Source: a virus
Direction: 5' to 3' (one strand)
IMG/VR virus record: IMGVR_UViG_3300049841_000015
Span: 1 to 22,532 of that record
DNA length: 22,532 bases
Below the pieces are notes generated by a model. The model worked only from the letters and a program-made list of their open reading frames with translations. It ran no database searches and was not told the origin of the DNA. Shown in pieces: positions 10,252 to 20,465 of this stretch (its first letter is position 1; each line of letters starts with the position of its first letter). Made by a program: the position numbers and the translations under genes.

Positions 10252-10314
10252 TCACCTTCCGCGAACTGTAACAATGTGGTGGGCACCTGACAATGCAGAT
10301 GTCTGCAAACTCAT
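10252..10314 (-). CDS. possible 20-residue mini-ORF carrying the LQTSA palindrome
   Basis: The ATG overlaps the stop of the HD gene by 4 bp (ATGA). Twenty codons follow, MSLQTSALSGAHHIVTVRGR, ending at a TGA 3 nt before the scaffold ATG. Residues 3-7 are encoded by the palindrome in the same frame used in the larger genes. There is no clear Shine-Dalgarno sequence of its own, so it would depend on coupling. It may be a functional leader peptide, a remnant of a tagged gene, or an accident of the palindrome position. Confidence 0.3.
   Translation of the reverse strand: MSLQTSALSGAHHIVTVRGR
10293..10308. repeat. 16-bp palindrome, copy 3
   Basis: Minus strand TTGCAGACATCTGCAT, one mismatch in the outermost pair. 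It lies just after the HD gene stop and is codons 3-7 of the 20-codon mini-ORF. Confidence 0.85.
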
Positions 10315-11801
10315 CCGAACAAACTGCGCTTGAGGACCATGAAGAAGTCCCCTTTGCGGGTGATGAGCTTGGCGATCAGCACCACCTTCTTCTTGAACGG
10401 GTCGATGAACTTGGTCAGCCCCTTGCTGATCAGTTCGTCGGGTGTCGAGTGGTAGGTCTCGGCGAGCTTCTTGTACTGGCGCTGCCCCAGATCGAGAACC
10501 TTGGCCAGTCCTTCGTTGGCCTTGCCCCGTTCCATCGTCACTTCCACCGCCTTGTCCTCGGCATTCCACTTCACTCCCTTGTACTGGGAGCCGACCATGC
10601 CGAGCGTGAACTTGGGCAGCACGCCCGAGACTTCGGACACGGCGTGCGAGTATGCCGCCTTCAACTCGGGTGACAGGTGACCGGCCTTCTCGATGTTGGC
10701 CCGCATCAGTTCCTTGGCACTGGCCACGTCCACCTTACCCTCGCCGAGCTTGACCAGTACGCCGATGTTGTCGGGCACGTGGCGCAGCATCGGCGGCATC
10801 TTCTCCTTGTGGAAGAGCGCGAAGTTGTCAGCCGTGGAGAAGGCACTGCGCTCCGGGTGCTGCTCCCAGTCCACCGAGGGTGAGTCGTGCGCGCCGATCA
10901 TCGTGGAGGCCATCGTCACCCAGTCCTTGCCCAAGCTCTTCTCCAAGATCGGGCCGACATGCTCGTTGAAGTATTGCTGCCCCCACCGGGGATGATCGAG
11001 GTCGAGGAAGTTGCGCGACGGTGGCGTGAGATAGCCCATGTCGTGCGTTGCGGCCACCACGTCCATCAGGAGCCGGTTGCCGGGAGTGTTCACGTTGGTG
11101 GGCAGCACGCCGAGGATTTCCTTGGCCATCTGCGCGTCACCGCGCAGGTGGAAGCTGCCGTGATCGCCGAGCGTGCGCGAAGCCGCTTCATAGTCCTGCG
11201 CGATCACCATGCGAGTCAGGGCGTGTTGCAGGTTGCGGGCGTCCTCCTCGTTCATGCCCGCTGCCCGTGCGTTGGCGTGCGTGGCGTCCATCATCTCGAT
11301 GATCGCCTTCTGGTTGTCGGGCGGCAGCACCTTGCTGTAGCTCGCCACGTAGTCTTGCAGGTTGGTGAACGGCTTGTCGGCCCCGAGCAGTTCGTCCATG
11401 CGTGCGGGCACGCTGTTGCGCGGATCGGCCAGTGCGTCACGATGCTCGCGCGAGAGCTTGCTGAAGGCTTCGTTGCGATCTTGAATCGGCATCTTGGCGA
11501 AGTCTTCGATGGTGCCCGGTCCCACGGGCGCTTCGGGGGCACTGCCCACCCCACCTTTGGTGAACTGCCCGCCTTCGGCATTGCCTGCCGACACGCGCGG
11601 GTGGGCCGCTTCGTCCCACTCGGCCTTTTTTGCAGACATCTGCACACCCTTGGGCAGGTAGCTGTTGATCAGCCGCTTCATGCTCTCGGGCACCTGCTCC
11701 ATGGATTCAAAGTGCTTGCACTCGTCCACGCACGGCCACGCCACCTCAGGCGGCATGTTGGGCGCAGCGAGGCGAAGATAGGTTCGCAGTTCAGGATTCA
11801 T
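10311..11801 (-). CDS. tagged HD-domain phosphohydrolase
   Basis: The ATG at 11801 overlaps the previous stop by 4 bp; the product has 496 residues. Residues 1-52 form a leader with WPCVDECKH. The palindrome then encodes VQMSA (53-57), and the tag variant EWDEAAHPRVSAGNAEGGQF follows (61-80). M55 is itself a plausible internal start: AAGGG lies 7 nt before it (ATG at 11639). The HD domain shows a full set of metal ligands: H218 (FHLRGD), H253-D254 (AATHDMG), H270 (DHPRWGQ), H305 (IGAHDS) and D325 (STADNF). HD proteins hydrolyse nucleotides or cyclic and signalling nucleotides, so an ejected HD enzyme could act on host nucleotides; the substrate is unknown. The C-terminus is Lys-rich. The HD call is firm, the delivery hypothesis is inference. 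Confidence 0.8.
   Translation of the reverse strand: MNPELRTYLRLAAPNMPPEVAWPCVDECKHFESMEQVPESMKRLINSYLPKGVQMSAKKAEWDEAAHPRVSAGNAEGGQFTKGGVGSAPEAPVGPGTIEDFAKMPIQDRNEAFSKLSREHRDALADPRNSVPARMDELLGADKPFTNLQDYVASYSKVLPPDNQKAIIEMMDATHANARAAGMNEEDARNLQHALTRMVIAQDYEAASRTLGDHGSFHLRGDAQMAKEILGVLPTNVNTPGNRLLMDVVAATHDMGYLTPPSRNFLDLDHPRWGQQYFNEHVGPILEKSLGKDWVTMASTMIGAHDSPSVDWEQHPERSAFSTADNFALFHKEKMPPMLRHVPDNIGVLVKLGEGKVDVASAKELMRANIEKAGHLSPELKAAYSHAVSEVSGVLPKFTLGMVGSQYKGVKWNAEDKAVEVTMERGKANEGLAKVLDLGQRQYKKLAETYHSTPDELISKGLTKFIDPFKKKVVLIAKLITRKGDFFMVLKRSLFG
11630..11645. repeat. 16-bp palindrome, copy 4
   Basis: Minus strand GTGCAGATGTCTGCAA, with the centre inverted (TG instead of CA). It encodes VQMSA 11 nt before the tag of the HD protein and creates an in-frame ATG with AAGGG upstream. 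Confidence 0.85.
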
Positions 11802-12139
11802 GCTGATACCCACTTTCCGTTGCGGATGAAACCGTGATCACCACACGAACACAGGATACTGGGAGAGAGCGTCAGCGGTTCCCACGATTCGACTTGCCAG
11901 AAGTGGCTGCGCTCATTGCCGGGAATGGAGCGAGTACCGGGCAGATCGAACCAACACGCCCCCATGCACGGCTCGCCCGTGACCTTGTGCGGATGCCTGA
12001 TCGTGCAGCCCGCCTTGGGCACGTCGGGCACCCCGGCGTAGCGTTCCGCATTCGATGGGATGTCGCGGTCAGGTGACCACTGAAACCACCGCAGCGAGTG
12101 GCCATCTCCCAACTCAAGGTCTGCGTCTTCGTTCCACAT
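11798..12139 (-). CDS. small cysteine-containing protein, DUF6527-like
   Basis: I chose the ATG at 12139 (MWNEDADLELG) because AAGGGGG lies 5 nt upstream; this gives 113 residues. In-frame ATGs at 12160 and 12175 are alternatives, and the last overlaps the upstream stop (ATGA). The protein contains GCTIRHPHKVTGEPCMGACWFD in its middle (three cysteines, two histidines). It ends with LTLSPSILCSCGDHGFIRNG KWV, a C-terminus that resembles DUF6527-type phage proteins, whose function is unknown to me; the Cys/His content suggests metal binding. The stop overlaps the next ATG by 4 bp. The gene is well supported by spacing and composition; the family name is from memory and tentative. Confidence 0.7.
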   Translation of the reverse strand: MWNEDADLELGDGHSLRWFQWSPDRDIPSNAERYAGVPDVPKAGCTIRHPHKVTGEPCMGACWFDLPGTRSIPGNERSHFWQVESWEPLTLSPSILCSCGDHGFIRNGKWVSA

Positions 12140-12171: not shown

Positions 12172-13989
12172 TCATTGGTTGGCCTTGATTATTTCGTTGA
12201 TGTAGCGGTCGCGCTTCTTGGCGTCCTTCATGGTGAGGATCGTGCCGATGATGCCCTCGCCGTAGCCCTTGCCGAACAGGCCCGATGATGCCACGGGAAT
12301 CAGCACGCGCCTCGGGATGATCAAGCCCATATACTGGCGAGTGCCGCCGCGCTCCTTGCCAATCGTGTGGTCCACGTACAGCGGACCTTCCTTGTTCCAT
12401 GCGTGCGACAGTGGCACGCCATGCTCCGTCACCACGCCTTCCACGTACTCGATGGGCACCTTGGTGACGCTGTTGGGGTCGCGCGCATCGGCGAGCATCA
12501 CGTCAATCGAGTTGTTGTAGCAGCGGTGCGGTGTCATCGGCTTGTCGGTGTTCTCCACTTCCATCGGTGTGCCGTGCTTGTGCACGAAGTCGAGACGCGG
12601 CAGGTGGGCCATCGTGGAAAGCTTGTCGAGCAGCGATGAGATGGGTTCGTTCTCGGGGATGTTGTTGCTGCGGGCCAAGTGCAACAGTTGGAAAGCGTTG
12701 CCCAACGGCGACTCAGGCTCACGGTAGCCCCCCTCCCCCGAGGTGAACTGGCCCGTCCTCGGGTCGTGGTTGGGATTGAACTTGAAGATCGCTTCGAACT
12801 TCTGCTCCTTGACGCGCTTCACCGCCTTGCCGGTGTGCGTGCGCCACTCGGCGAGACTGCTCACGGAGTAGCCCATCGACTTCTTGCTGCGCGGCGCGAA
12901 GGTCATCAGTTGAATCTGGTCGCGCGGCACCTTGCCCAGTGCTTGCAGGTTGGAGCCGAAGAACAGCGGATCGAGGTCGCCGGTCACCGCTTCGCGGGCC
13001 GCGAGCCACGTCTTGAGGAAGCGTTCCTTAGCGTCCTTCTTCTCGGTGTCGGTCGCGGGCCGCTGCACGAAGGTGGACTCACTGGTGCGCGCGACGATCT
13101 TGGCGTTGCCGGTCTTGTCTCCCCACGACAAGTTGTGCCCCGACCATGCCAACATCTCCTCGGTGTAGCCTGCCCCCTTCATCTCGGTGCGGGTGTCGTG
13201 CAACAGGTCGTAGATTTGCGGGTGCAGATCGGTGCCGGGATAGCTCTCCTTGGTGTCGCCGATGTAGGTCTTCATCTTCTCAAGGAAGCCGCGCTCGCGG
13301 GCTTGCTCGATCAGGTCTTGTGGGGTCACGTCCCCGGCCATGTAGTCGCGGGCGAGCAGCATGGCGCTGTGAATGCCTTCGGCCACCTTGCGATCCGTGG
13401 CGAAGCTGATGGTGTCATCGGTGCCGCCGCCCAAGCCCAACCCCGCGCCTTGGTTCAACTCCTCACGGGTCTTCAGCCCGTGCTTCTCCACGTCGGACGC
13501 TGCCGTAGTGACGTGATAGAGGACCGGAGGCAGCGGGCCATACTTCTCGCCGCCGCCATGCCACCCGCCGAGCTTTTCGAACTCCTCCAACGTGAGCTTG
13601 CCCGTCGAGACGGCAGCGTTGGCCTGCCGATCCCACTCCTTCCGCAACTCGCGGTTCTCGCGCAGGATCGCCATCACCTTCTCTTCCATCTCGGGCGTGC
13701 GCTGCGTGGCGTCGAGTTCCGTCCACTGGGTCAGCAACTTCTCGCCTTCGGGTTCGTGGGTCTTGGCGTACACGTCCTTGGGCACGCGCCATGCTTCGGC
13801 GTGCGCGAACTGTCCCCCTGCGGAAGAGCCTGCGGGTTCGTGATTGGGGTTGAACTTGAGAATTGCAGACATCTGCAACTCGTCAGGGTCTTCGAACGTC
13901 GCGGGGCACTTGCGCCAATCGTCCGTCTTGTCGAAGGAGACGGTGGCGAAGAAGTCGTCCATGAGAGCTTGGGCGCTACTCGTCTTCAT
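12172..13989 (-). CDS. two-module tagged protein: ADP-ribosyltransferase-like + papain/transglutaminase-like
   Basis: The product has 605 residues. The ATG overlaps the end of the polyprotein gene by 14 bp. Residues 38-42 (LQMSA) come from a palindrome copy and are followed by the tag LKFNPNHEPAGSSAGGQF (44-61). Module 1 continues with a helical region and LYHVTTAASDVEKHGLKTRE (157-176) and DDTISFATDRKVAEGI (191-206). The Y-H-x-T...GL...SF-x-T-D pattern fits H-Y-E type ADP-ribosyltransferase or RNA phosphotransferase-like folds, with H159 as the probable NAD-binding residue. Module 2 starts with the second tag FKFNPNHDPRTGQF (402-415). It then carries HRCYNNS (C490), YVEGVVTEHGVPLSHAWN (H529) and LYVDHT (D540), a probable Cys-His-Asp triad like that of transglutaminase/papain-fold proteins. 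An AAGGAG lies just before the second tag without a start codon. The activities are inferred from motifs. Confidence 0.75.
   Translation of the reverse strand: MKTSSAQALMDDFFATVSFDKTDDWRKCPATFEDPDELQMSAILKFNPNHEPAGSSAGGQFAHAEAWRVPKDVYAKTHEPEGEKLLTQWTELDATQRTPEMEEKVMAILRENRELRKEWDRQANAAVSTGKLTLEEFEKLGGWHGGGEKYGPLPPVLYHVTTAASDVEKHGLKTREELNQGAGLGLGGGTDDTISFATDRKVAEGIHSAMLLARDYMAGDVTPQDLIEQARERGFLEKMKTYIGDTKESYPGTDLHPQIYDLLHDTRTEMKGAGYTEEMLAWSGHNLSWGDKTGNAKIVARTSESTFVQRPATDTEKKDAKERFLKTWLAAREAVTGDLDPLFFGSNLQALGKVPRDQIQLMTFAPRSKKSMGYSVSSLAEWRTHTGKAVKRVKEQKFEAIFKFNPNHDPRTGQFTSGEGGYREPESPLGNAFQLLHLARSNNIPENEPISSLLDKLSTMAHLPRLDFVHKHGTPMEVENTDKPMTPHRCYNNSIDVMLADARDPNSVTKVPIEYVEGVVTEHGVPLSHAWNKEGPLYVDHTIGKERGGTRQYMGLIIPRRVLIPVASSGLFGKGYGEGIIGTILTMKDAKKRDRYINEIIKANQ
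13863..13878. repeat. 16-bp palindrome, copy 5
   Basis: Minus strand TTGCAGATGTCTGCAA with perfect arms and TG centre. It encodes LQMSA 5 nt before the first tag of the 605-residue protein. Confidence 0.85.
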
Positions 13990-16900
13990 GCTTCTTCCTC
14001 TTCACCTTGTCATGCTCGCGGCCTGCCCACTTGCCCCACACCGTGGGCGAGATGTAGGAATTGAGCGCCACGGCGCGAGTGTTGCCCAGATGCGCCGACA
14101 CGGCATCACCGACAGCCACGCGCGCCTTCTTGTACTCGCTCAGACTCTTCGGCTTGCCATGCTCGCTCAACCATTCCAGTGCCTTGTACGTGCCATGCCA
14201 CGTGCGGAAATCCTTGGCGCTGAAATCGTCCTTGGTCACTCGCTTGATGTAGCCATTGACGCGGGACTCGGTGGTGTCGAAGAGTCGATCTGTGGGTCCG
14301 CGCTTGGCTTGGGCGTTGCGGATGTAGGTGGCGAGCAGGGCGTCGTCCACGCTGTGTTCTTGCTTGACGGCGTGCTTACCGGGAAAACTGAACCGGATAG
14401 TATTCCCGGCAACACTAACATGCTCACTGAGGAGGGTGGACGCGCCATACGCCTTGCCTTTGCGGGTTTCGAATTCGTGTTCACCTCCTACGCGGAACCC
14501 GGTCTTGTCCATCAGCCGCACCACTGCCGCCGTATCCTTCTCGGACTTGGTGTTGCCGCGCCGGGTCATGTCGGCCTGTGCCTCTCTGCGGAGGTTGGGT
14601 AGGGCCGCATTGAAATCCTGCACGCGCGAGAACTTCTCGGCAGCGTTGCCTGCCGTGTTCTCTGCGCTGTACTTGTACTGAAGCTTGCCGTTCTTGGCCG
14701 TCCACGTCGCCTGCATCGGCGCGTTGGTATCCGGGTTCAGGTGCACGTTGATCGAGGCCGGGGGGATGGCCAGTGCCTTGAGCCGATCAGCAACCGCCTT
14801 GGGCACTTCGGTGTGATCGCCGCCATAGCGCCACACCTTGGCGTCGGGGTTGCGGTCATCGAAGTACATGCCCGTGCCTTCGCGCCACCTGCCGAGCGCA
14901 TCACGGGGCTGCGTGCCATCGGTATCGCGCTTCCACAGGCGGAACGTGTCGCCAATGGCCATGAAGTAGCTCATGTCCATCACGATGTCGTCGGCCTTCT
15001 TGGTGGTGTGAGCGTGGGCCGCAAGGATGCGCCGCGCCACGCGCTCGATTTCGTTGGCCTGCTCTTGGCCTTGCACCTCGCGCCCGAGCGATTGCAGGTG
15101 ATCCATCACCGCACGTTCGAACTGCTCCATGCCGAGCAGATTCATCGCCCGGTTCATCGCTTCCACTGTGGGGATCGCCTTGTGCCCCGGCTGCACGGCG
15201 TTGGCCGCAGTGGTGAACTTGCCGTCATCGTCGTGATTCGGGTTGAACTTGCTGACAATCTCTTCGGACTTGACAAGATAATTCTTGTCGGCGTCCTTGA
15301 TGCGCCGCACCTTGACGGTCTTGCCCTCGACAGCGGTCACCTCATACGTGCCCGAGGTCAACCACTCCTTCGCGTCGCGCAAACTGGGACTGTCGGTGTA
15401 CTTGGACACATAGATGCCCTTGGCGTCGCTCGCTTCCAACACCAACGTGACACCGGGCTTGCTGCGGTACTCACGCGGGGAGAACTCGTCACGCCGAAAC
15501 CTCTCGGCGAGCGCCGGGTCTTGCGTCCATGAGGTCAATGACTCGCTGAACTTGTCGCCCACTTGGAAGTCGCTGACACCACTCAAGCCACGGTACAGCG
15601 GCATCTTCAGCGGGGCCGTGCTGTTGATGTAGTCGATCACCTGCTTCGCCATGTCGTAGCGTTGCTGATCGTCTCCCTTGCAGTCGTAGCAGAGGTAATC
15701 ATTGCGCCGCATCCCCTCGATCACTGCGCGAGCCGCGTGCTGATAGTCGTTCCAGTCGAAATCACTCTCGGTCCAACCACGCACGAAGTCGGCAATTTCC
15801 TCGGGCAAATCTTGGGAGGAGGCAAAGCGCCCGAGACGGTCGTGGTTACGGTTGAATTTGAGGATCGAGGAAAATTGATTCTTTTCGGATTGCGGTTGCG
15901 GTGAGGAAATTGCAGATGTCTGCACGCAAAAGATCACCGTGTAGTAGATCGGGCCGTCTTCCGCCTTGGTCTCGCGGGGGTGCAGCGGATGCTTGGGGTG
16001 GTGCCGTGCACTCTCCCACTTGTCGCTGTGTCCCTCCTGATACGCCACGATCCATTCGGGTGGAATGCTCGCGGGCAAGCGAAAGGTCTTCGAAGACTCG
16101 GTGAAGTATTCGTCCTGCACCAACTTCTGCCGCGCTTCGGGGGGAAGCTTCACCTTGAGGACGATGGGATCGCCTCGGTCCCAACGGTCGCCATTCTTCG
16201 ACCATGCGTAAGCCGCTTCGGGATCGCTCACCAGATAGACCGACTTGCCGCGCTCGTCGTTGTAGTAACCGGGACTGAAGTTGCGGTTGGGGGGATCGAG
16301 TACCAGTCCCTTCTGCATGATGCTGTCGAGGGCTTCGGAGGTGGTGCCATGGAACTGGGTGGCACGGGCCAAGTTCCTGAACAGTTCGTCGTTGTGCATC
16401 CGCACGCGCACGTAGTCGCTGATCTGCGATTGCCGCTCGTACATGTTGGCGATGCGCTGCTCTTTGGGCGACATCCGCGAGTACGGCTTCTGCCCTTCGG
16501 GGTAGGCGGGCAGCATGGCGTTGAGCGTGGACACTGCCTTGTTGATGGTGTGCCAATCCATCTTGGGCAGCACGTCTTCACGGAAGGCTTTCCACCGGGT
16601 GAACTGGGGATCGTCTTCCGGCTTGTCGGGGTTGAACAGGTAGGCCGCGATTTGTGACTCGGCAGTGGCGAACCTGCCACGCTCGTCGTGGAAATGGTTG
16701 TACTTGCGGACTTTTGCAGATGTCTGCAAAACCATGCCGTAGTGCCACTGCCGCTTGAAGCGTTGCTTCTTGGGGCCGAGCGTGGGGGGCAACCTGCCGC
16801 CGCGATCAAGATCGGCTTGCGCCATGTCTTCCTTGCGCGTGGGGTCCATCCACCGGGCCTCTTGGGCTTTGATGAAGGCCGGGTAGTCCTTGCTGTAGGT

Positions 16901-17617
16901 CTCGATGGCCTTGGCCATGGCTTCGCGCTTGGGGTGATCCGCCGTGCCGCGCGCATAGGCGAAGGCGCAGGCGAACCACTCCTGATCGTTGGTGCGCGCG
17001 TACATGCCCAGTGGGTAGGGCGGGTCATGCGGGGGGCCATGGGCGATGTGCTGAATCTCTTGCACCAGTCGCCCGAATCCGCGCTTGGACGATTCGGGGC
17101 CACCCGTCTCCACGTTCATGAAGTGGTGGCCGAACTCATGGTCGATGATCGACTTGATGCTGCCGGTGCCATCGGGATGGAAGCCGCTGTCGATGGCCTG
17201 CTTCAACTCGGTCTTGAAGGATTCGCCGGGTTGCTTGTTGAGGACGCCCAGACTGTTCCTGATGCCCCAGTAGTGGGGGTTGAGGAACATATAGCCGGTC
17301 ACGGACATGCCCGCCCATGCGTTGAGCATGGTGTCGAACAGATCGGTGCCCTTGTTGGTGATGCTGATGCCGCGCAGCCCTTTGAAGGCGTAGGGGTAGT
17401 CGGTGGCCAGTTTATCCACGGCCATGGCCACCTCGCGCACCATCTCGGGCACGCCGTCGCGCAGCTTGAATTCCTTGCCGGGGTACTTCTCCGACAGCAA
17501 CTTCTCTACAGAATAGGCACCCTTGCCCTCGTACTCACCGCCCCCTTCGGAGGTGGTGAAGCGCCCGTCATGTGGGTCGTGATTCGGGTTGTACTTGAGG
17601 ACGGACTGCCAATCCAT
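13976..17617 (-). CDS. four-module tagged polyprotein: metallopeptidase, two ADP-ribosyltransferase-like domains, topoisomerase IB
   Basis: One frame of 1213 residues with no internal stop. The start ATG at 17617 (MDWQSVLKYN) follows GGGAAGAG; the frame is open further upstream but shadows the preceding gene. Module 1 (1-294): tag at 8-20, gluzincin-like HEFGHH at 160-165, probable third ligand E213 in EWFACAFAYA. Module 2 (295-565): LQTSA, tag at 305-316, then FHGTT (H423), SVYLVSDPEAAYAW (459-472) and SIPPEW, an H-Y-E-like ART or 2'-phosphotransferase-like fold. Module 3 (566-786): VQTSA, tag at 587-598, then LYRGLS (R676), SLTSWT, and KEWLTSGTYEV (E751), an R-S-E type ART. Module 4 (787-1213): tag at 790-801, then a full poxvirus-type topoisomerase IB: R1042, K1081, KDFRTWHGT (R1138), LGNTRAVALNSYISP (N1179, Y1188). 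The stop overlaps the next start by 14 bp. Each module could act alone after cleavage at the tags. The domain calls are by eye. Confidence 0.85.
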   Translation of the reverse strand: MDWQSVLKYNPNHDPHDGRFTTSEGGGEYEGKGAYSVEKLLSEKYPGKEFKLRDGVPEMVREVAMAVDKLATDYPYAFKGLRGISITNKGTDLFDTMLNAWAGMSVTGYMFLNPHYWGIRNSLGVLNKQPGESFKTELKQAIDSGFHPDGTGSIKSIIDHEFGHHFMNVETGGPESSKRGFGRLVQEIQHIAHGPPHDPPYPLGMYARTNDQEWFACAFAYARGTADHPKREAMAKAIETYSKDYPAFIKAQEARWMDPTRKEDMAQADLDRGGRLPPTLGPKKQRFKRQWHYGMVLQTSAKVRKYNHFHDERGRFATAESQIAAYLFNPDKPEDDPQFTRWKAFREDVLPKMDWHTINKAVSTLNAMLPAYPEGQKPYSRMSPKEQRIANMYERQSQISDYVRVRMHNDELFRNLARATQFHGTTSEALDSIMQKGLVLDPPNRNFSPGYYNDERGKSVYLVSDPEAAYAWSKNGDRWDRGDPIVLKVKLPPEARQKLVQDEYFTESSKTFRLPASIPPEWIVAYQEGHSDKWESARHHPKHPLHPRETKAEDGPIYYTVIFCVQTSAISSPQPQSEKNQFSSILKFNRNHDRLGRFASSQDLPEEIADFVRGWTESDFDWNDYQHAARAVIEGMRRNDYLCYDCKGDDQQRYDMAKQVIDYINSTAPLKMPLYRGLSGVSDFQVGDKFSESLTSWTQDPALAERFRRDEFSPREYRSKPGVTLVLEASDAKGIYVSKYTDSPSLRDAKEWLTSGTYEVTAVEGKTVKVRRIKDADKNYLVKSEEIVSKFNPNHDDDGKFTTAANAVQPGHKAIPTVEAMNRAMNLLGMEQFERAVMDHLQSLGREVQGQEQANEIERVARRILAAHAHTTKKADDIVMDMSYFMAIGDTFRLWKRDTDGTQPRDALGRWREGTGMYFDDRNPDAKVWRYGGDHTEVPKAVADRLKALAIPPASINVHLNPDTNAPMQATWTAKNGKLQYKYSAENTAGNAAEKFSRVQDFNAALPNLRREAQADMTRRGNTKSEKDTAAVVRLMDKTGFRVGGEHEFETRKGKAYGASTLLSEHVSVAGNTIRFSFPGKHAVKQEHSVDDALLATYIRNAQAKRGPTDRLFDTTESRVNGYIKRVTKDDFSAKDFRTWHGTYKALEWLSEHGKPKSLSEYKKARVAVGDAVSAHLGNTRAVALNSYISPTVWGKWAGREHDKVKRKKHEDE
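15272..15289. repeat. inverted repeat of a different sequence at a module boundary
   Basis: GACAAGA TAAT TCTTGTC has perfect 7-bp arms and a 4-nt centre. It lies 21 nt before the tag of the topoisomerase module, where other modules have the GCAGA...TCTGC palindrome. Confidence 0.6.
15910..15925. repeat. 16-bp palindrome, copy 6
   Basis: Minus strand GTGCAGACATCTGCAA, one outer mismatch. It encodes VQTSA at the boundary of modules 2 and 3 of the polyprotein, about 50 nt before the tag. Confidence 0.85.
16714..16729. repeat. 16-bp palindrome, copy 7
   Basis: Minus strand TTGCAGACATCTGCAA with perfect arms. It encodes LQTSA at the boundary of modules 1 and 2 of the polyprotein, 8 nt before the tag. 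Confidence 0.85.
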
Positions 17618-17795
17618 AGCTCTTCCCACCGGGTTTGGGTTCGTAGTGCACGCCATTATCACCCGGTGCGGGGAACCTGTGGTCGAGCGAGTTGAGGAGG
17701 ATGACGAGAGGGATGCCTTCGGAAAATGCCTTGCAACTGAACTCGCCTTTATTGAGATGGGCGCAGCCCATGCACATCGGTACACCAGCAATCAT
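17568..17795 (-). CDS. small cysteine-motif phage protein
   Basis: The ATG at 17795 overlaps the protease stop by 4 bp (ATGA), giving 75 residues. A further upstream ATG at 17810 in the same frame would overlap the protease gene and is less likely. The N-terminal half contains CMGCAHLNKGEFSCKAF followed by SEGIPLVILLNSLDH and PAPGDNGVHYEPK. This Cys-x-x-Cys...Cys-x-AF...GIP...DH...PGDNG pattern recurs, to my knowledge, in small proteins of phage head clusters whose function is unknown; the cysteines could bind metal. The 3' end overlaps the start of the polyprotein gene by 50 bp in another frame. The gene itself is well supported; the function is unknown. Confidence 0.7.
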   Translation of the reverse strand: MIAGVPMCMGCAHLNKGEFSCKAFSEGIPLVILLNSLDHRFPAPGDNGVHYEPKPGGKSYGLAVRPQVQPESRPT

Positions 17796-18385
17796 GACGC
17801 TTCCTTCCATGTCAGCTTTTCAACATAGCTGAAACGATGATTGTGCCCGTTGGCAGGCTCAGTCACCGTGCCCCGTTTAATCACGTGGGAATGGCCGTTG
17901 ACACTGGACGTGGTGCCGCCAAGAAACCGTCCGTTGTCATCGTAAGACACGAAGAATTCGTGATCGTGGCCGTCTTCATGCTTGGTGACGCGACCCATGA
18001 TCACGGGCGGGATTTCGACTTCCATCTGCGACTTGCGGCGAGTGACCAACGCTTCCATGGAGAAGCCGTTGATTTCGCCCTTCTTCACCATGCTCCACAC
18101 CTGCTTGTCGGGCACGTGCACGCCGACTACCCATGCGCCTTCGATGAAGTGCGGATCACCCTTGCGGGCGATGAAGCTCTCGATGACCGCCGCCCCGGCG
18201 ACGATCTTGTTGTTGTGCTGAAGATCAACCTTGTCGGTCTTCTTCTCGCGCATGAACTTGTACGCCATCGCCTGAATCTCTTCCGCCGTCATGATGTCGC
18301 CATCGGCGTCGGGGATATTGGGGGCGTACACCTCCCCCCAGACCATCTGTTGGTCTTCGGAGGCGAGCTTCAGTTGGGCGTCCAT
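17792..18385 (-). CDS. XkdF-like prohead serine protease (peptidase S78_2 type)
   Basis: The product has 197 residues. Residues 13-45 (QMVWGEVYAPNIPDADGD then IMTAEEIQAMAYKFM) match the start of the XkdF family, thought to be prohead maturation proteases that trim scaffold and capsid proteins inside the procapsid. Likely catalytic residues are H57 (in DLQHNN) and S109 (in GFSMEA). The C-terminus carries three His-rich motifs (GHDHEF, NGHSH, NGHNHRF) that may bind metal. Between them, residues 148-157 read YDDNGRFLGG, which resembles the DxxGRF core of the cargo tag. The gene abuts the tagged gene upstream, and its stop overlaps the next start by 4 bp. Its place among the polyprotein genes makes it the natural candidate for their processing; that link is inference. 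Confidence 0.85.
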   Translation of the reverse strand: MDAQLKLASEDQQMVWGEVYAPNIPDADGDIMTAEEIQAMAYKFMREKKTDKVDLQHNNKIVAGAAVIESFIARKGDPHFIEGAWVVGVHVPDKQVWSMVKKGEINGFSMEALVTRRKSQMEVEIPPVIMGRVTKHEDGHDHEFFVSYDDNGRFLGGTTSSVNGHSHVIKRGTVTEPANGHNHRFSYVEKLTWKEAS

Positions 18386-18997
18386 CTACGGTCCCGGCTT
18401 CTTGAACTGGATCGTATTGGTGATGGGACTGGCGTCGTGCCCGAAGCGGTAGTAGAGGTGGAACTTCTCCGCTTGCTTGGGCGACATGGTGTAGCCATGC
18501 TCGCGGTTGGTGTAGTGACCGCCGACCGCTTCGGCAAGCCTGCCCGCACGGGTCTTGAAGCCGTCTTGGCCGGGAGCCTGCACCAACACCTTGCCGCGAG
18601 CGTAGCGCGCAGGTTGGATGGCGTACTCGCCATGGTGATCCTTGGTGCCTCCCTTGACCGCAGGGAACTCCAACCGGCCATTCATACCCGGTGCGCGGGG
18701 CACCTTCAGTTCGCGGTCAGCGAGCGCATGACTGTACTGGTCCTGCTCCTTGGCCTTGGCCTGCTCCCATGTCATGGCCGTGCCTTCGCGCATCGCTTGC
18801 GCCATGCGACGGGCGTTGTACTGCTCGCGGGTCTCCCCCGGCAGGAAGCCCTTGGCCGAAGCAGGGTGCGTTTCGCGCATCCGCTCCGTGGTCTTGGCGT
18901 TGGTGGTGGAGATGAAGGTCGCTCCCTCGCCCGAGGTGAAGCGACCATCCGGCCCGTGGTTGGGGTTGAACTTGCGCGTGCGGAAAAAGTGGTTCAT
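18386..18997 (-). CDS. tagged protein of unknown function
   Basis: The ATG is preceded by AGGAGG with a 7-nt spacer and follows the upstream stop closely. The product has 203 residues. It opens with MNHFFRTRKFNPNHGPDGRF, the same N-terminal tag as its neighbours, followed by TSGEGA. The middle (about 40-110) is charged and probably helical. The C-terminal part (about 143-195) contains GFKTRAGRLAEAVGGHYTNR and GYTMSPKQAEKFHLYYRFG. I have the impression that this segment occurs as a small domain in other phage clusters, but I cannot name it. The stop TAG directly abuts the ATG of the XkdF protease gene, so the two are probably translated together. A cargo or protease-partner role is inferred from the tag and location only. 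Confidence 0.75.
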   Translation of the reverse strand: MNHFFRTRKFNPNHGPDGRFTSGEGATFISTTNAKTTERMRETHPASAKGFLPGETREQYNARRMAQAMREGTAMTWEQAKAKEQDQYSHALADRELKVPRAPGMNGRLEFPAVKGGTKDHHGEYAIQPARYARGKVLVQAPGQDGFKTRAGRLAEAVGGHYTNREHGYTMSPKQAEKFHLYYRFGHDASPITNTIQFKKPGP

Positions 18998-19007
18998 GGC
19001 GGGCCTC

Positions 19008-20465
19008 CTAGAGGCCCATGGCCCGAACCTTCTTCTTCAGGTCACCCTGCTTCGGGGTGTGCGTCACCTTCTGCCACGATCCGCCGACATTGGCGTGGGT
19101 GATGTCGTGACTGTAGACCGACCCCATCTCGGTGTAGTCGCCGTAGACCGTGGCAAGCCGGGTGTTGCCCTTCTTGTTGTCCTCGATCTTGGCTTCCCAT
19201 CCGTTGCGGAGGCGCACCTTGGTGCCGCGCTTCAGGTCGTTGGTGAACAGCGCGGACGGGCCTGCCACGGGCTTGCCGAGCGGTTGAGCGTTGCCATGCT
19301 CGCCCGAGGTGAGACCCGTGCTTCCCGGCGTATTGTCGCCGTCCGTGGCCTTGTTCTCGCCGCTGCGCGGGCCATCGGCAGTGCCCACCGGGCCGACTGC
19401 GCCCACCCCGGCGTTCTCGGTGGACTTGTTGTCGCCGCCACGCACGCCACCGGCATCCTGCCCGGTGACCTTGGGTGCGCCGGTCAGTGTGTCGTTCTGT
19501 TGCGCGACCGCAGGCGTCCCGGCGTTCTCCCCCGAGCGCGGACCCGACACCGACGTATCGTGCAGAGGTGCGTTGTTGGGGACCGCCTTGTTGTCGCCCG
19601 AGCGCGTACCGCCTGCGTCCTGACCATCGACCGAAGTGGCCGGGGCCGGGGCCATCTTGACCGGATCGGTGCGGGGGTCGTTGCCGCGATTCGCGGACGT
19701 GCCCTGCGACTCACCGCTGCGCGGACCTTGAACCGGGGGTTGAGCATTCTTGCCCTCCGTTCCCGAGGGCATACCGGAAGCGAAGCGACCGGAAGCATCG
19801 TGGTTGATGTTGTACTTCAGAACCTTGCTGAAATCTTGCTTCATGGTCGTCTCCTCAACTTGGGAATCGCGGGGTGCTTCTTCCTTTTGCCGCTTGGCGT
19901 AAATCTTGGCCTGATGTTCCTTCATCTTGCCATAGGCGGCGCTGACTTCTCCGTAGCGCGGGTGATCCGGGGTGACGTGGATCGTGTCCTTGTCGAAGTA
20001 GTCGGTCATCGAGTCCGACTCGTTGCGGACCTTGAACTGTTCGTGCACCGCCTTCGGCAGACTGGCGTAGCCGCGTGCGTAGATGGCGATGGTGCCCTCG
20101 GGCAGGCCCGACTCCTTGGTGTAGCTGCCGCCTGAGTACCACACGCCGTGCAGCTTGCCTTCCTTGTCCTTGATGCCGTTGTACATGAAGCGCACGTCAT
20201 CGGGGGTGGCAGGCTTGGTGGGTGCGCCGCCATCGGTCGCCGTGGACAGCGGACCCGTGGGGATGCCGCCCATGCGCTCCTTGAAGCTCGCGTGGGCCGC
20301 TGCGCGATCTGCGTCGGAGACGGCACGTTGTGCGTCAGGATTGACCGAGGGCGTCGGCCCTTCGAACTCGGCTGCGGCACTCGCGCCCGCGCTTACGCCC
20401 GAGGCGAACCTGCCTTTCTCATCGTGATTGGCGTTGTACTTTTTGGTACGGGTGAAGAAGGACAT
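19008..20465 (-). CDS. two-module tagged protein (unknown domain + Gly-rich repeats with SH3-like C-terminus)
   Basis: The frame encodes 485 residues and starts at an ATG with a strong leader (GAGGAG, 5-nt spacer). Module 1 (residues 1-207) opens with the tag KKYNANHDEKGRF (8-20) and carries an unrecognised domain (about 85-190). Module 2 begins at an internal in-frame ATG (19844) that has its own GAGGAG leader and opens with VLKYNINHDASGRF. After this tag come alternating Gly-rich motifs, GPRSGE[SN] and QDAGG[TV]RxGDNK, over about 150 residues. The last 80 residues (DLKRGTKVRLRNGWEAKIED...MGSVYSHDI) resemble a small SH3-like domain common in phage structural clusters. The product could be made as one fusion protein, as a separate C-terminal protein from the internal start, or both. 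The role is probably virion cargo or a capsid-associated protein; this is inference from the shared tag and the position next to the protease. Confidence 0.75.
   Translation of the reverse strand: MSFFTRTKKYNANHDEKGRFASGVSAGASAAAEFEGPTPSVNPDAQRAVSDADRAAAHASFKERMGGIPTGPLSTATDGGAPTKPATPDDVRFMYNGIKDKEGKLHGVWYSGGSYTKESGLPEGTIAIYARGYASLPKAVHEQFKVRNESDSMTDYFDKDTIHVTPDHPRYGEVSAAYGKMKEHQAKIYAKRQKEEAPRDSQVEETTMKQDFSKVLKYNINHDASGRFASGMPSGTEGKNAQPPVQGPRSGESQGTSANRGNDPRTDPVKMAPAPATSVDGQDAGGTRSGDNKAVPNNAPLHDTSVSGPRSGENAGTPAVAQQNDTLTGAPKVTGQDAGGVRGGDNKSTENAGVGAVGPVGTADGPRSGENKATDGDNTPGSTGLTSGEHGNAQPLGKPVAGPSALFTNDLKRGTKVRLRNGWEAKIEDNKKGNTRLATVYGDYTEMGSVYSHDITHANVGGSWQKVTHTPKQGDLKKKVRAMGL
19850..19872 (-). 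repeat. 23-bp direct repeat, copy B (inside the 485-residue ORF)
   Basis: Identical to copy A over 23 bp, but read as codons RDSQVEET inside the ORF. It places GAGGAG 6 nt before an in-frame ATG (19844) that opens the second tagged module, so a ribosome binding site is retained within coding sequence. Confidence 0.8.

Follow-up and report, generated by a model that had tools for sequence, protein, structure and literature searches.

Why would a phage keep several unrelated enzymes in one reading frame amid its head genes, with a near-identical short peptide before each of them? The question is raised by a 22,532-nt stretch of viral DNA (IMG/VR virus record IMGVR_UViG_3300049841_000015, positions 1 to 22,532; the whole stretch is hereafter called the window). 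Here a single minus-strand frame of 1213 amino acids (138 kDa) runs from an ATG at 17617 to a stop at 13976 (13976-13978), placed between the gene of an XkdF-type prohead protease and the scaffold and capsid genes. We consider it probable that this frame encodes a polyvalent-type effector that combines several enzymes, is loaded into the head and injected, and arose by shuffling of modules in frame at a tag of about 15 residues.

One frame, five tagged modules

An earlier annotation of the window made without database searches (the sequence-only reading) had described one uninterrupted frame at 13976-17617 with four enzymes separated by repeated tags. Frame and tags both hold (Table 1); the plus strand of the same interval is interrupted by stops. 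The count has to be amended to five, as a degenerate fifth tag splits the proposed topoisomerase module in two. The resulting order is a zinc metallopeptidase, two ADP-ribosyltransferase (ART)-like domains, a helical domain of ~100 amino acids and, behind the degenerate tag, a bacterial-type topoisomerase IB.

A near relative, the 108-kb IMG/VR contig L044 (capsid 92% identical), possesses a homologous frame of 1202 amino acids. G+C content at third codon positions (GC3) lies between 0.78 and 0.85 and is uniform over all segments of the window frame, and nonsynonymous divergence from L044 (dN) is lower than synonymous divergence (dS) in the peptidase (0.56/0.90) and the topoisomerase (0.30/1.02). 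Because of the uniform GC3, the homologous L044 frame and these dN and dS values, we regard the frame as a real gene, neither a chance open frame nor an assembly join.

The first module retains a full zinc-ligand set, HExxH plus a third ligand (H157, E158, H161 and E210 in module-sequence numbering, all invariant), and its predicted metallopeptidase identity, already proposed by the sequence-only reading, is good. A profile search gives a weak likeness to M34-type zincins over the zinc-binding core alone, which would indicate the fold class only. L143 and L214 carry homologues as genes with one tag, and in L238/L222 the homologue follows XkdF in a fusion. The second module is a putative ART of moderate confidence, its Pfam match falling below the cut-off. 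The third shares an R-S-E-like motif with most relatives (relatives lie in L206, L126, L156, L177 and L051) without the motif being invariant; its profile search of the PDB yielded nothing significant, and its ART-like identity stays tentative because structure prediction failed. Thus, of the two ART-like domains proposed earlier, one is moderately supported and the other is suggested by the shared motif. The topoisomerase IB assignment of the fifth module, also anticipated, is solid: it aligns all five catalytic residues with R137, K174, R239, N280 and Y289 of the Deinococcus enzyme 2f4q, which we take to be the catalytic R-K-R-(H/N)-Y set.

No relative of the whole protein was found in a direct scan of viral contigs, and tblastn of the frame against sequenced phages returned distant topoisomerases only; relatives were reached instead via the capsid, the tag and a palindromic repeat described below. 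Clustering of the modules into families was uninformative, since the shared tag itself links them all.

Table 1. Positions of the tagged frame, its modules and tags, and other features of the window.
Feature	Position	Strand	Details
Uninterrupted 1213-aa frame, five tagged modules	13976..17617	-	ATG 17617; no internal stop; uniform GC3
Module 1, putative zincin metallopeptidase	16706..17557	-	HEFGHH at 17123-17140; HExGH...E invariant in 7 homologues
Module 2, putative PARP/KptA-like ART superfamily domain	15893..16669	-	Pfam PARP 1.2e-4 (below cut-off); NCBIfam KptA 0.034
Module 3, possible R-S-E-type ART-like domain	15263..15823	-	LYRG, LTS, KEWLTSG
Module 4, ~100-aa domain, helical by eye	14912..15214	-	conserved in L044; alone between two tags in L121
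Module 5, predicted bacterial-type topoisomerase IB	13979..14884	-	Pfam Topoisom_I 1.6e-32; PDB 2f4q 1e-38
Tag 1, KYNPNHDPHDGRF	17558..17596	-	residues 8-20; profile 37.6 bits
Tag 2, KYNHFHDERGRF	16670..16705	-	residues 305-316; 34.2 bits
Tag 3, KFNRNHDRLGRF	15824..15859	-	residues 587-598; 31.8 bits; 5' partner of L044 chimeric tag
Tag 4, KFNPNHDDDGKF	15215..15250	-	residues 790-801; 37.2 bits; 3' partner of L044 chimeric tag
Degenerate tag 5, QPRDALGRW	14885..14911	-	residues 903-911; aligned with full FDESKHPREPAGTPKGGQF in L044
XkdF-type prohead protease gene	17792..18385	-	Pfam Peptidase_S78_2 4.1e-25; PHROG 15223 4e-78
Single tagged gene, 203 aa	18386..18997	-	tag 32.3 bits
Frame with two tagged modules	12172..13989	-	tags at residues ~40 and ~397
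Frame with two tagged modules	19008..20465	-	21-nt leader CGCGATTCCCAAGTTGAGGAG at 20471-20491
Gene with HPR...GGQF tag variant	10311..11813	-	homologue L044:6816-8288 has the same variant
Palindrome sites	5447, 7106, 10293, 11630, 13863, 15910, 16714, 20957		
Palindrome TTGCAGATGTCTGCAA, in frame LQTSA	16714..16729	.	junction 1
Palindrome TTGCAGATGTCTGCAC, in frame VQTSA	15910..15925	.	junction 2

Exchange of modules at the tag

Comparison with L044 shows how the array changes. Its frame keeps the first and the last two modules and has the middle ones swapped. A single linker and tag precede the ~100-aa module in L044; up to the tag this stretch matches the window linker and tag 3 at 63-73%, after the tag it matches tag 4 at 67-87%, and outside these parts similarity is at background level, so that the footprint of the exchange falls exactly at a tag. 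Since tags 3 and 4 of the window each account for half of the L044 linker and tag, recombination at the tag, by which module 3 would have been gained or lost, is the simplest reading.

The suggestion that the array consists of fused genes was pursued by comparing related phages and is borne out. The topoisomerase exists as a standalone gene (L055:3139-4086), the peptidase in the single-tag genes named above, and the neighbouring frame 19008-20465 preserves a trace of joining: its 21-nt ribosome-binding leader has a second copy within the frame, carried by the second module at 19851-19871 ahead of an in-frame ATG. Homologues of its two modules are separate genes in L120 (7370-8071 and 8087-8917), and we interpret the internal leader copy as the footprint of a gene fusion.

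The tag and its partners

The tag follows the consensus [VIL]xK[FY]NP[NYF]HDxxGRF[TAS][ST][AG]xGG and is nearly alike in N-terminal and internal copies. Its N-H-G-F core is near-invariant, and a Gly-rich stretch of small residues follows. The core residues use all their synonymous codons, and selection therefore appears to act on the peptide and not on the DNA. A profile built from pattern matches (threshold ≥12 bits) identified 330 tags in 259 open reading frames (ORFs) from 2.25 Mb of loci and 0 in reversed proteins; most of these loci were fetched by tag pattern or capsid, and the two counts represent no unbiased frequency. A pattern scan at the DNA level recovered the tag from viral sequences (at least 119 stretches) and from genome contigs of bacteria or archaea (31); its carriers, more than 150 sequences, are for the most part uncultured phages. 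Archaeal genome contigs with the tag include L223 and L240 (Nitrososphaeraceae) and L229 and L241 (Methanosaeta), and in the Nitrososphaera provirus Nvie-Pro1 a copy sits close to the portal gene's end, immediately ahead of a Rel/Spo-like gene. Text searches of the literature for tag strings, the closest papers included, found no description, most subscription papers being outside their coverage.

Multiple tags, from two to six, are present in 49 ORFs. Gaps between them span 86-680 amino acids (median 269), each internal tag preceding a module-sized stretch, and in multi-tag frames with a known end at least 113 amino acids follow the last tag.

Three placements of the tag recur: it opens genes that encode one effector, with only ~10 residues ahead of it; it separates modules; and it lies between an effector and a portal, MuF or prohead-protease protein. 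The modules behind it match ARTs, zeta toxin, NUDIX, RelA/SpoT, colicin E5, glutamine deamidase and CdiA-C, as well as 2'-5' RNA ligase, DNA ligase and topoisomerase IB. The 65 long N-terminal partners comprise up to 20 portals, 8 MuF proteins and 9 prohead proteases (summed Pfam counts; PHROGs agree). Examples are a 2594-aa protein with MuF and six tags (L156), portals with three tags (L191 and L104) and XkdF joined by a tag to a metallopeptidase (L238). Genes adjoining the tagged ones encode portal, head morphogenesis, protease, terminase and capsid proteins. The isolated relatives DLP5, RcZahn, RHph_Y1_11 and SIO-2 keep an annotated portal-XkdF-scaffold-capsid backbone without the tagged array (DLP5 was profiled through L064, which gave no tag; the other three were judged by annotation), and for this reason the tagged genes resemble accessory DNA inserted into the head operon.

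Proposed role and known counterparts

We propose that the effector would be expressed late, alongside the head proteins, enter the phage head and reach the host cell together with the injected DNA. The tag that comes with every module would direct loading into the head and give a flexible connection, and might serve for processing too; recombination at the tags would add, remove or join modules in frame. That the protein combines several effectors is borne out by its peptidase, ART-like and topoisomerase modules, its head-gene context and the multi-tag frames elsewhere. Because tagged genes lie in head operons, tags are attached to proteins of the head interior and standalone effectors bear them N-terminally, a loading role is the best reading of the tag, which probably marks proteins for entry into the head and injection with the DNA. 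A wider role, whose likelihood we put clearly below even, would make the tag a widespread, undescribed signal for both head loading and release: any enzyme could be packaged alone, in series or on a portal, MuF protein or protease and be freed in the procapsid, the coding sequence of the tag serving as a module-swapping joint.

Several observations weigh against the proposed loading and injection of a multi-enzyme effector. No virion proteomics or packaging data on tagged proteins were found, and the tag is nearly missing from sequenced cultured phages. A loading signal would be superfluous between an effector and a carrier that is already in the head, such as portal or protease. On the enzymatic side, module 3 matched no ART profile or curated family, and AlphaFold models of modules 2 and 3 were unusable, with predicted local distance difference test (pLDDT) scores of 39-41.

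Among described systems, polyvalent proteins of phages and conjugative elements (Iyer et al. 2017, PMC5512222) are the closest. As in those, unrelated effector enzymes (zincin, ART and others) share one polypeptide, here at least two distinct domains among zincin, topoisomerase IB and ART-like; the gene lies among virion and packaging genes; and the L044 comparison, with its chimeric tag, documents shuffled architectures among relatives. By its architecture we take the frame to be the same kind of object. It differs in that each module has its own tag, modules are also encoded singly in tagged genes, and portal, MuF and prohead protease are joined to modules through this tag. Text search of PMC5512222 found no linker or short motif, and topoisomerase in a reference title only.

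Polymorphic MuF toxins (Jamet et al. 2017, PMC5576092) resemble the tagged proteins in having C-terminal enzymes fused to a head protein. However, tagged frames use three carrier types, of which MuF is one; the 1213-aa frame itself gave no MuF match, the domain being present in others such as L156. The main text of PMC5576092 uses no word with the stem motif, linker, cleav or tag. T4 internal proteins and Alt, a head-packaged ART (PMC9503650), are injected effectors with a short N-terminal signal (PMC9026906, PMC9503650), and the window frame has an N-terminal tag and an adjoining protease gene, its own packaging and any cleavage at the tag being hypothetical. The T4 proteins are, in contrast, single-effector genes, and any sequence relation to the tag would be hypothetical. 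MuF toxins and T4 Alt are related strategies. The Deinococcus radiodurans topoisomerase IB (PDB 2f4q) belongs to the same family as module 5 and shares its five catalytic residues, whereas here the enzyme forms the C-terminal module of an effector encoded in the head operon.

Competing explanations

The sequence-only reading held that the neighbouring XkdF protease cuts near the tags. Under this explanation the tags are sites of the head-maturation protease, and the polyprotein is cut in the procapsid into separate enzymes in equal amounts. We regard it as a serious possibility, held tentatively; cutting by XkdF at the tags with equal release is plausible and compatible with a head-loaded effector. 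The XkdF gene adjoins the frame. Tags sit between effectors and their carriers (protease, portal or MuF); this leaves room for cleavage, and a cut there would free the effector. The Gly-rich, small-residue stretch after the tag also speaks for it. In T4, the N-terminal targeting sequence of internal proteins is removed by the head protease, a precedent for such processing. On the other hand, site, product and protease specificity are hypothetical, tags adjoin proteases of at least two families (S78_2 and S78), and the profile finds no tag in the capsid or scaffold proteins of the window. Where an effector stands alone, its tag sits only ~10 residues into the chain, which also ill suits a pure separator.

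Somewhat unlikely is that the protein stays fused as one multidomain effector, the tags being flexible hinges and recombination joints only. N4 virion RNA polymerase, like the polyvalent proteins of plasmids, is transferred as a full-length chain (PMC5512222), and the recombination seen against L044 agrees with such joints. Yet a near-invariant core with synonymous codon variation, and N-terminal tags on single-domain proteins, exceed what a hinge needs.

Self-cleavage in cis by the module 1 zincin, before packaging or after injection, appears improbable. The frame's own metallopeptidase, with all zinc ligands retained, is a processing candidate no less natural than XkdF, and self-processing by zincin domains was proposed for polyvalent proteins with an explicit viral-polyprotein analogy, citing phage P1 DdrB processing (PMC5512222). 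However, most tagged frames are without a recognised peptidase module, which makes this unlikely as a general route, and N4 virion RNA polymerase is packaged uncut (PMC5512222).

Separate proteins could also arise from internal translation starts without proteolysis, as the duplicated Shine-Dalgarno leader and in-frame ATG kept in 19008-20465 would allow. We judge this very improbable: a Shine-Dalgarno sequence with a start codon precedes 9.8% of internal tags versus 9.2% in the control, and none is found at tags 2-4 of the 1213-aa frame, which rules out internal initiation as a general mechanism.

An assembly or sequencing artefact fusing separate genes has a practically negligible chance, since, although the source is one metagenomic record, the independent L044 rules it out by its matching in-frame architecture with conserved linkers, and the 49 multi-tag frames in the locus set and the uniform GC3 also oppose it.

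Neighbouring genes and a palindromic repeat

The XkdF-like protease was correctly recognised as a neighbour, and a tagged single-domain gene does stand beside the frame (18386-18997). In L048/L049/L050/L052 a separate gene of 350 aa corresponds to the first module of 12172-13989. A tblastn search with a neighbouring frame against sequenced phages gave no match.

A palindrome, TTGCAGA(YR)TCTGCAA, recurs where genes begin or meet, and some copies are translated in frame to LQTSA or LQMSA. The window contains 8 copies versus 0.27 expected and L044 28 versus 0.006 expected. The copy at 13863-13878 places a minus-strand ATG in frame (LQMSAILKFN), and L044 has one in the same place (VQMSAILKFN). A CG-centred version (TGCAGACGTCTGCA core) occurs in L002 (5 copies), L043 and L026, often near gene boundaries; these copies in other phage contigs suggest a wider element family. 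The palindrome looks like a phage regulatory or boundary element. A role as recombination site is unsupported, as the L044 exchange falls at the tag, away from the palindrome.

Biological implications

How phages choose the enzymes packed into their heads is understood in a few models only. If the proposed role of the tag is true, packaged effectors would be predictable from sequence alone by means of a short peptide that hundreds of candidate effectors share, whether attached to portal, MuF or protease or arranged in series. The tag would offer a testable loading signal, perhaps a processing site, and would explain how effector cassettes are shuffled with the reading frame kept intact.

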